Part shown: positions 52,017-55,144 of the stretch, one piece after another
Layout of the letters: the number at the start of each line of letters is the position of its first letter
Numbering within the stretch: position 1 is the stretch's first letter
NCBI RefSeq assembly: GCF_023699475.1
Contig: NZ_JALXFV010000002.1
Location: forward strand, 667,393-731,392
Length of the DNA: 64,000 nucleotides
Origin: Halomarina rubra
GTDB taxonomy: Archaea > Halobacteriota > Halobacteria > Halobacteriales > Haloarculaceae
Direction: 5' to 3'
Notes under the pieces: generated by a model
What the model saw: the letters and a program-made list of their open reading frames with translations, nothing else
Database searches by the model: none
Told to the model about the DNA's origin: nothing
Made by a program: the position numbers and the translations under genes

Positions 52017-53153
52017 TTACTGGCTCTGCTTCTTCGAGGACTTGCTCTTCTTCGAGTTCTTGTCCTTCGAGGACTTCGCGGACTTCGACTTGCCCTTCGA
52101 GGAGTTACCGTTGCTCGACGGGTTGCCGTTGGAGTTCGAGGACTTCACGGGCTGGCTCTTCTGGGGCTTCTCGCGCTCCTCCTCGGAGCGGGCGGCGACG
52201 AGCGAGCCACGGGCGACGCTGTAGAGCGGTTCGTCGGCGCGCTTGACACCGCTGACCGAGAACGGCAGGTGCGCGTCGTCGAGGTGGTCCTCGAACAGCT
52301 TCTCGAAGCCGTCGGGCGACGCCGTGCCGCCGGTGACGACCACGGGAACGTCGAGACCTTCCTCGACGTCCTCGTCGTCGACCTCGCGGGCGATGTTCTC
52401 GATGACGTAGTCGAGCAGGTTCTCGTAGTAGATGGCGAGCGCGCCCTCCACACCGCCGACGTCCGTCTTGAAGTCGAGTTCGAAGCCGTCCTCCTTGATG
52501 GAGGTGACCTTGTCGACGGGCTTGCCCGTCGCGCGGGCGGCCTGCTCGTCGATCCAGTCCCCACCGCGGGCGATGGAGAACGTCATGACGGGCACCGCGT
52601 AGTACGCGAGGCAGATGTTCGTCATCCCCGCACCGAAGCTCACGCCGAGACCGGTGAAGTTGTTGTCCGCGAGTTCGCTGTAGATGACGGCCATCCCCTC
52701 GTTGATGGGTTCGGGCTCGTAGCCCATGTCCGACAGGAACGACTCACACGTCTTCTGGTGGTACAGCGTCGAGAGGTCCGAGTCGATGGGGTCCGCGGGC
52801 GTCGAGAAGTGGATGCGCTCGCCGGGGTAGTCCGGCTCACCGGCGACCTGCTCGATGATGAGCTTGATCATCGGGATGGCGCTCTTCTCGTCCGAGGAGA
52901 GGATACCGCGCTGCATCGGACGGCGCGTCTCCTGTTTGAAGATGTTCGCGAAGTTGAGTGCGTCGTCACCGACGACGTACACGTTGTCGTCCTTGCGGAT
53001 GTGCAGGACGTCCGAGCGAGAGAGCATCTGCTCGGCCATATCGGAGTGTTCGATCTCCACGAAGGAGTTGCGCTGCTGGACGAACACGGTGTCGCTGTCG
53101 TCCTGTTTCCCGGAGATGATGTTCATCGTACCAACGTCGAGGCCTTTCGCCAT
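52017..53153 (-). CDS. Actin/MreB-like cytoskeletal protein (salactin type)
   Basis: A 378-residue protein of the actin/Hsp70 fold with archaeal MreB-like features: [11 protein letters not shown] (phosphate 1 loop) at the N-terminus, [14 protein letters not shown] (about 165, phosphate 2) and [16 protein letters not shown] near 275 (adenosine loop). Overall it resembles salactin, the dynamically unstable haloarchaeal filament protein (established, by memory). From about residue 324 a Ser/Lys/Asn-rich tail with about twelve Lys and few acidic residues in its last 45 positions is unusually basic for a halophile. The promoter TTTATATT lies 27 bases before the ATG at 53153. Confidence 0.87.
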
Positions 53154-53176
53154 GTTCGGTGCTATGAGTAAACCAA

Positions 53177-53183
53177 TATAAAG
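53177..53183 (-). promoter_or_regulatory. TATA box of the salactin-like gene
   Basis: CTTTATA on the minus strand, in a strongly AT-rich stretch centred 27 bases before the ATG at 53153. It is one of the clearest promoters in the window, suggesting high expression and a leaderless message. Confidence 0.6.
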
Positions 53184-53296
53184 TTTCTCTCTACTCGTAT
53201 AGACTCGCATTCAACAATCTCGTCTGCCGTTGCTCAAACGAGCGAAACGTTCGAAAAGTAGCGCGAAGGCGGCTCGTGACTGCGGTTCTCGTCGGG

Positions 53297-54211
53297 CTAG
53301 CCGAGGTTCAATAGCGACTTCAGGCGACCGAACACGCCGCCGCTGTTGAGTTTCTCCATCTTCTCCTCGCGCTCCTCGTCCTGGCGTTTCTGCTCCTGGA
53401 GTTGGGCGAGCGCGGCGGCCTGGTCGTCGGTGCTCGACCCGCGGGCGGTCTTGCGCGCGGAGTCCCCGCCGCGCATCCCCTGGAGACCGGCGACGGCGGC
53501 GTCGACGGCGTTCCCCCCCGAGCGGTGGGACTTCGCTTCGACACCGTCGAACCCGGACGTGTCCAGGCCCTCGGTGTCGGCTTCGAGGCTGATGCGGCGG
53601 GTGTTATCCTTCGGGACGCCGCCCCACGTCATCTCGGTGTTCTTCATCGCCTCGTCGATGTCGCGTCGGACGTCCTCGTCGGTCACGTCGGGACCGGTCT
53701 CCTCCTCGGTCGCCTGTGCGACGACCTCGTCGGGGGCGGCACGTTCGACGTGGTAGCTCACCAGCGCCGCGAACGTTGCGGCGACGACCACGACGACGCC
53801 CAGCGCGTAGAGACCGACCCCTTCCACGCTGTAGTCGGTTCCCGTGTCCGCGTTCCACTGCGACGGGTGCGCCCAGACGAACAGCGCGATGGCGACGAGA
53901 CTGAACGCCTCGCCCGCGAGCGCGCCGATGCGCGCCCGCTTGTCCAGCGGGAGGAGGACGGTGACCCCGAGGAACAGCGTCGGGAGCCCCGAGGCCCCGA
54001 CCGCGAACGCGATTTCGCGGAGCCAGAACGTCTTCTCGGCCCCGAACGCCACCCGCTCGGCGACGAACAGTGTCAAGCCGACGAGCCCGAGCGCCAACCC
54101 GCCGAAGAAGAGCGCGAACCCGGCGTAGACGTCTATCTGCCGCTCGGGTTCCCCGATGAAGCGTCGATACCACTCGACCAGTGTCGTCTCGATACCGCCT
54201 TCGTCACTCAT
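53297..54211 (-). CDS. Four-helix membrane protein with acidic/coiled cytoplasmic tail (DUF7139 type)
   Basis: A 304-residue protein with four predicted transmembrane helices (about 26-52, 64-89, 95-114 and 130-155), then a long cytoplasmic tail. The tail has an acidic segment and a coiled-coil-like stretch at about 265-292 (LAQLQEQKRQDEEREEKMEKL). It ends in a short amphipathic helix, FGRLKSLLNLG. It lies directly upstream of, and on the same strand as, the salactin-like gene, 143 bases away. I recall it as DUF7139 family. A link to membrane attachment of the filament is possible but is inference. Confidence 0.78.
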   Translation of the reverse strand: MSDEGGIETTLVEWYRRFIGEPERQIDVYAGFALFFGGLALGLVGLTLFVAERVAFGAEKTFWLREIAFAVGASGLPTLFLGVTVLLPLDKRARIGALAGEAFSLVAIALFVWAHPSQWNADTGTDYSVEGVGLYALGVVVVVAATFAALVSYHVERAAPDEVVAQATEEETGPDVTDEDVRRDIDEAMKNTEMTWGGVPKDNTRRISLEADTEGLDTSGFDGVEAKSHRSGGNAVDAAVAGLQGMRGGDSARKTARGSSTDDQAAALAQLQEQKRQDEEREEKMEKLNSGGVFGRLKSLLNLG

Positions 54212-54286: not shown

Positions 54287-54910
54287 CTACTGCTCGTCGA
54301 GGAACTCGCGCTCCGCGGCGCTGTAGGCGAGTGCCGTCTGCCCGGCGTAGACCCGGTCGCCCATCTCGACGGCCAGGTCCTCTTCGGTGTACTCGGACGG
54401 GAGCAGGACGTCCGCACGACTCCCGAAGGAGATGTGGCCGATGCGGTCGCCCTTCTCCACCCGGTCGCCGACCCCGACGTACGGGTGGATGCGCCGGGCG
54501 AACCACCCGGCGATGAGGACGACGCTGAACGCCTCGAAGTCGACCTGCAACTGCTCGTTGTTGTCCGATTCCTTCGAGAACGCGGGCTTGTACGCACCGG
54601 GCCGGTGGGTGACCCCCTGGACGGTGCCGGCCAGCGGCGCGCGGTTGACGTGGACGTCGGTCGCGCTCATGTAGATGCCCACGCGCAGGCAGTCGTCCTC
54701 CTCGCGAATCACCGAGACGCGGCCGTCGGCGGGCGAGGCGACGCCCACCGGCGCGGTCTGTCGGTCCGGGTCGCGGTAGAACTGGAGGACGAACCCGGCC
54801 AGCGCGACGCCGAGAACGCCAGCGACACGCGAGCGGAGTGCTCCGAGCAGTCCCGCCACCAGCGCGAGTGTAGCGTACTTCGCCCCGTCGGGGGCGTAGT
54901 CGTCGAACAT
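54287..54910 (-). CDS. asd: Archaetidylserine decarboxylase proenzyme
   Basis: A 207-residue phosphatidylserine-decarboxylase-type enzyme that makes archaetidylethanolamine. The N-terminal hydrophobic stretch (about 13-44) leads to YRDPDRQTAP, SPADGRVSVI and VHVNRAPLAGTVQG. The self-cleavage site FGSR at 162-165 makes Ser164 the pyruvoyl residue in HISFGSRADVLLP. The size is that of the short archaeal/Psd-B type. ATG at 54910 is chosen. It is upstream of the membrane and salactin genes on the same strand. Confidence 0.9.
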   Translation of the reverse strand: MFDDYAPDGAKYATLALVAGLLGALRSRVAGVLGVALAGFVLQFYRDPDRQTAPVGVASPADGRVSVIREEDDCLRVGIYMSATDVHVNRAPLAGTVQGVTHRPGAYKPAFSKESDNNEQLQVDFEAFSVVLIAGWFARRIHPYVGVGDRVEKGDRIGHISFGSRADVLLPSEYTEEDLAVEMGDRVYAGQTALAYSAAEREFLDEQ

Positions 54911-54971
54911 ACGCCGACTCGGTCCGTGTACCGTATCAACCCTACTGACTCGCTCCGGAACCGCGCCTTGG

Positions 54972-55103
54972 CAGTCACGGGCCGTCATCGACCCCGTCGC
55001 CGTCGGCCGACCACAGACGGACGCGCTCACGGCCGAGGACGCCCGGATAGTGGAGTCGTTCTTCGCCGACGACGTCGTGGCGGACCTCTCGGCGTCGATT
55101 TGA
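54972..55103 (+). pseudogene. Possible gene remnant (C-terminal fragment)
   Basis: The frame ending in TGA at 55101-55103 reads AVIDPVAVGRPQTDALTAED onward, then ARIVESFFADDVVADLSASI. Almost every third codon position is G or C and the protein is acidic and helical, like real haloarchaeal coding sequence. There is no suitable start codon; the upstream part is non-coding in character. It is probably the tail of a degraded gene whose start was replaced when the present neighbours came in. I cannot identify its family. Confidence 0.35.
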
Positions 55104-55144
55104 GCCACGGGAAGACACTTATCGGAACGACAGGTCGTCCCCGT

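Follow-up and report, generated by a model that had tools for sequence, protein, structure and literature searches.

The actin gene analyzed here encodes a volactin, and the membrane protein encoded directly upstream of it, a DUF7139 protein with a particular tail, is in all probability its dedicated functional partner. We base this on the synteny of the two genes and on their concordant phylogenetic profiles, which are the opposite of the two outcomes, lost adjacency and independent profiles, that speak against a partnership. This would provide one strong candidate for a volactin membrane factor, with its specific tail, that occurs in haloarchaea as well as in further classes of their phylum. 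It would also provide a lead to the function of DUF7139, since our search, limited to open-licence literature, found no paper that names either this family or HVO_2016.

The window, a stretch of 64,000 nucleotides from Halomarina rubra, contains the following features of the pair:

52017..53153, minus strand: volactin-family actin (PF25216), 378 aa, Pfam Volactin E 1.7e-135
53175..53182, minus strand: TATA-like box TTTATATT, located 22-29 bases upstream of the volactin start codon, between the ATGs at 53210 and 53153
53297..54211, minus strand: four-TM membrane protein of the DUF7139 family (PF23600), 304 aa, proposed membrane partner of volactin, Pfam E 5e-43
53738..54139, minus strand: four-helix membrane domain, residues 25-158, from AlphaFold2 helices, hydropathy and K/R distribution
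53300..53737, minus strand: acidic tail, predicted to be cytosolic, residues 159-304, whose profile is found together with volactin
53609..53683, minus strand: tail block 1 TDEDVRRDIDEAMKNTEMTWGGVPK, consensus SDEEVxxDIDEAMxxVELSWGGVEK
53387..53509, minus strand: tail block 2 VDAAVAGLQGMRGGD...TDDQAAALAQLQEQ, consensus GVDxxVxGLxxLKGGE...STVDDQTAALxELRxQ
53303..53341, minus strand: short basic C-terminal helix GGVFGRLKSLLNL, helix 293-300 in the AlphaFold2 model

The gene directly upstream of the DUF7139 gene encodes a phosphatidylserine-decarboxylase-type enzyme (window 54287-55108).

The first-pass annotation had described the actin as salactin-like, which is wrong at the family level. The protein matches Pfam Volactin (PF25216) with 452.1 bits over profile positions 1-321 of 321 (cut-off 35 bits), but it gave no match to Pfam Salactin (PF25229) at E<=1e-3, which rules out a salactin identity. 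For comparison, a salactin-family gene elsewhere matches PF25229 at E 5e-181 (601 bits). Weak volactin matches in other genomes resemble salactins (the one scanned against Pfam gave E 5e-181). The window actin also falls outside MreB/Mbl (PF06723), scoring 22.1 bits against a cut-off of 27 bits, and a sequence search of solved structures returned weak matches to FtsA and actin-family proteins and nothing stronger. Its C-terminal tail (residues ~325-378) is variable and rich in Lys, Ser and Asn. The AlphaFold2 model of volactin reached a pLDDT of 45, probably as a result of low alignment diversity.

Two minus-strand open reading frames, 52017-53210 and 53297-54211, confirmed the annotated arrangement of a membrane protein gene upstream of the actin on the same strand. 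The listed start of the actin at 53210 is superseded, however, by 53153 (MAKGLDVG...), which is almost certainly the true start because the homologues share it. In haloarchaea, 42-173 bp (median 97) separate the stop codon of DUF7139 from the start of volactin. A TATA-like element, often CACATAGATTTATAATCC, precedes the volactin ATG by a similar distance in many haloarchaeal homologues of the locus. The conservation of this element indicates that volactin probably has its own, leaderless promoter, and its position between the genes suggests that volactin and DUF7139 need not share one transcription unit.

The upstream protein matches PF23600 with 146.7 bits over positions 1-149 of 150 (cut-off 30 bits). 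AlphaFold2, run with a 61-sequence alignment, placed transmembrane helices at residues 25-55, 62-86, 91-114 and 128-158, mostly with pLDDT >90. The hydropathy peaks agree with them, in support of the four helices annotated earlier. As the positive charges (K/R) are located N-terminally and in the central loop, both ends of the protein are predicted to lie in the cytosol. Neither a Foldseek search of the model against the PDB (no match at E<=0.001) nor a sequence search of solved structures (nothing significant) returned a relative.

The tail of this protein had been annotated as acidic and coiled, with an amphipathic end (FGRLKSLLNLG). Its acidity holds, with a net charge of -12 over 146 residues. 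The coiled character applies to one segment, a confidently modeled helix at residues 261-291. The model also has short helices at residues 178-190 and 236-247, and otherwise shows the tail mostly as a low-confidence linker between short conserved blocks. Within block 1 (DEDVRRDIDEAMKNTEMTWGGVPK), A188, W196, G197 and G198 are invariant in the 61 sequences, and D184, I185, M189 and V199 are each conserved in at least 90% of them. In block 2, L243 and L268 are invariant, and V236, D237, V240, G248, Q264 and L271 reach at least 90% in the same set. The amphipathic end held up only weakly. Its hydrophobic moment of 0.28 was matched by half of the shuffles, and across the family the C-terminal helix has a mean z of ~0.6 and a mean net charge of +1.8. 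The block 1 helix exceeds it in mean amphipathicity (z 1.26 family-wide). Thus, we discarded the C-terminal helix as a strong feature, while GGVFGRLKSLLNL stays a possible membrane-touching end.

We define here DUF7139 type V (DUF7139-V, V for volactin) by tail profile A1, which comprises blocks 1 and 2 and replaces a Cys ribbon. The window protein belongs to this type, with a tail profile match of E 2.9e-43 in its own genome, where the other DUF7139 copy ends in YCGSC...YCGAHEE. Of the 194 haloarchaeal genomes, 190 contain the DUF7139 domain itself, frequently more than once; genomes that lack volactin are among them. Copies located away from volactin, where their tails were inspected, mostly carry the Cys-rich ribbon end (YCGNCxHFEYVR...YC). 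Paralogues with such an end (YCGNCxHFEYVR...YCGxH...MDACEEW; for example G000:C1:203187-203636, L002 and L149) are found in many haloarchaea, also in the absence of volactin. Since the inspected copies lacking the type V tail are of the Cys-ribbon type, and the domain is present in genomes without volactin, it is the tail and not the transmembrane domain that tracks volactin.

This tracking is close to complete. In a sample of 194 haloarchaeal genomes, one per species, tail profile A1 and volactin were each detected in 117 genomes, 116 of them common to both; one genome has the tail only, one has volactin only, and 76 have neither. The phylogenetic profiles are therefore not independent, independence being the outcome that the first-pass annotation had set against its proposal. 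Because the genomes are related, we attach no probability to the co-occurrence; the number of independent changes is a better measure. Eight genera contain both genomes with the two genes and genomes with neither, and the splits are always concordant. Genera are monophyletic by design in GTDB, so these eight genera imply at least eight independent concordant changes. Both exceptions are explicable. The volactin-only genome (G060) carries an in-frame relic in which residues 1-~37 of DUF7139 are joined to the last ~84 of the volactin domain (L195:1366-1827 / L201 near 8914), a deletion that would have removed both functions together. The tail-only genome (G186) is a fragmented assembly of 180 contigs, 95% complete.

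The gene order is likewise conserved. In 96 of the 116 haloarchaeal genomes with both genes, DUF7139 immediately precedes volactin in the same orientation, and a separate named set, which includes Haloferax, Haloarcula, Halorientalis and Natrinema species, gave 70 adjacent loci out of 80 under a strict rule. In the Haloferax genomes sampled, where VolA (HVO_2015) of Haloferax volcanii belongs to the same actin family (PF25216) as the window volactin, the arrangement is that of the window pair; two Haloferax species (G078, G113) have neither gene.

We also surveyed 148 genomes of the phylum, ~124 of them outside the haloarchaeal class. Full-length volactin was present in 19 non-haloarchaeal genomes, DUF7139 exceeded its cut-off in exactly the same 19, and in all 19 it is the immediate upstream neighbor of volactin on the same strand, with a gap of 1-168 bp that is often 3 bp. 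All eight non-haloarchaeal volactin neighbors that we tested pass the Pfam DUF7139 cut-off. One further genome (G295) has a decayed volactin only. HHalign aligned the haloarchaeal and non-haloarchaeal DUF7139 proteins at E 3e-21 over most of their length and the tails alone at E 6e-5. The tail is little conserved in sequence across this boundary, and several of the non-haloarchaeal proteins have an acidic segment resembling EEIERDIEEA, a counterpart of block 1. As both the pair and the homology extend outside the class, the association would either predate the haloarchaea or have moved as a unit between classes.

What might such a partner do? In the passages on volactin in the Haloferax work, its filaments meet the membrane by their tips, and the binding factors are given as unknown (PMC10869688); we found no discussion of the neighboring DUF7139 protein in these passages. 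In view of the published tip contacts, DUF7139-V is the simplest candidate, being a membrane protein dedicated to volactin whose predicted cytosolic arm is flexible and conserved. The first-pass annotation had proposed an anchor or regulator of the filament, both of them putative roles. Judging from sequence and models, we hypothesize that DUF7139-V is probably the protein that attaches volactin filaments to the membrane, and we moderately favor a direct action through its tail, as a tether or nucleator of volactin tips. In our model, the pair is a conserved module whose upstream member encodes a polytopic membrane protein. The four-TM domain would fix DUF7139-V in the membrane, and its flexible cytosolic tail would present the motifs DIDEAM..ELSWGG (block 1) and VDxxVxGLxxLKGG...DDQ (block 2) for volactin binding. 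Through this binding, the tail would keep the end of the filament at the membrane, where it might also nucleate or cap it, and the basic C-terminal helix might give a second membrane contact. With a conserved promoter-like element of its own in haloarchaea, volactin, the filament subunit, could be made in a different amount from the anchor. Here, tip binding, the role of each tail block, nucleation and any tension sensing are what we infer. A wider version, in which a membrane-embedded nucleator or tip-holder belongs to a system older than the haloarchaea, grips the filament ends with disordered motifs and possibly couples tension to assembly, is offered tentatively and may well not hold in full.

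Among the alternatives, the most durable, which we still judge unlikely, places the two proteins in the same pathway with no direct contact: DUF7139 would sense or change the tension, curvature, lipid or ion state of the membrane, to which volactin would respond via other proteins. It is compatible with all the genomic evidence, as the co-occurrence fits a partner that never touches the filament, and a four-TM domain of unmatched fold could be a sensor. The portions of the Haloferax studies on volactin link it to changes in shape and to the mechanics of tissues: Haloferax volcanii needs volactin to form disks on time, and compression-induced tissue formation is affected too (PMC10869688, PMC7617734). 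Moreover, a phosphatidylserine-decarboxylase-type gene lies upstream in the window, and PssD depletion is described in part of the same work as changing Haloferax cell shape (PMC10869688). However, the part that tracks volactin is a cytosolic tail with short linear motifs, as expected of a protein-binding arm and not of a sensor output, and no other protein accompanies the pair as widely.

It is also doubtful, and considerably less probable, that DUF7139-V acts as a direct regulator and not as an anchor, its tail severing, capping or sequestering volactin at the membrane as a dynamic-instability switch while something else does the anchoring. The same data would fit, the two short blocks conserved in the tail could bind either the monomer or the filament end, and the filaments disassemble quickly according to the published passages on their dynamics (PMC10869688). 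A tip-bound membrane protein is nevertheless the simplest fit to the published tip contacts, and regulation and anchoring are compatible rather than exclusive.

Finally, the pair could be inherited together for reasons of linkage. Twenty of the 116 haloarchaeal genomes with both genes do not have them adjacent, namely 17 of the Halorubrum-type genus g16, G049, G129 and G076 (contig end). In g16 the genes are found on different contigs or ~80 kb to >1 Mb apart on one contig, and a tree of the rpoB region places the g16 genomes that lack both genes in two positions, the clade G193/G065/G097 and G133. Two lineages without both genes thus arose where the genes are unlinked, so simple linkage is insufficient. 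We also clustered the genes found up to four positions from volactin in both directions, a rough check with crude gene calling from which 18 loci dropped out: the DUF7139 cluster was the largest (50 loci, seven families), stood at position -1 on the same strand in 49 of the 50 loci, and was the sole neighbor conserved across seven families, the next-largest clusters being mostly limited to one family. Consequently, although the genes are adjacent in most genomes and one deletion is enough to remove the two, as happened in G060, a linked pair with no functional tie is very improbable and largely refuted by the g16 losses, given that co-occurrence and joint loss persist where the genes are unlinked and that the pair is kept outside the haloarchaea while other neighbors are clade-limited.

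A volactin anchor of this kind would resemble known actin partners in function only, and we found no homology of the DUF7139 protein to RodZ or ParR. RodZ is a single-pass membrane partner of MreB that binds it through a cytosolic helix-turn-helix domain. If our hypothesis is right, both would be membrane proteins whose cytosolic part holds an actin filament. The window protein differs, having four TM helices instead of one, no cytosolic helix-turn-helix, a largely disordered tail and no recognizable domain but DUF7139. ParR is a DNA-bound plasmid protein of ribbon-helix-helix fold that binds the ends of ParM filaments; the possible likeness lies in short peptide motifs that grip an actin-like filament with dynamic instability by its tip. 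The salactin of Halobacterium salinarum (PF25229) is a haloarchaeal actin too, but of a separate Pfam family. The sections of the literature that deal with salactin describe dynamically unstable filaments anchored at the cell poles (PMC10746226; PMC10869688), together with poor synteny and a role in DNA partitioning at low phosphate (PMC10746226).

Several individual loci are worth recording. On a Halorubrum ezzemoulense contig (L274) the pair is adjacent, unlike at the other Halorubrum loci seen; transfer or contamination is possible. In G129, an ORF that includes a PQQ beta-propeller ends in the volactin-associated tail (L145:8501-9919). It lies close to volactin but on the other strand and is probably a rearrangement relic; another tail-bearing ORF lies elsewhere in this genome. 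A second volactin-type protein of ~650-1360 aa is encoded in G118 (L150:5698-9390), in at least 20 other Natrialbaceae (f3) genomes and also in G136. The one examined (L150) carries its actin domain close to the N-terminus and, behind it, a predicted coiled coil of ~800 residues; the fusion of an actin to so long a coiled-coil tail looks unusual.
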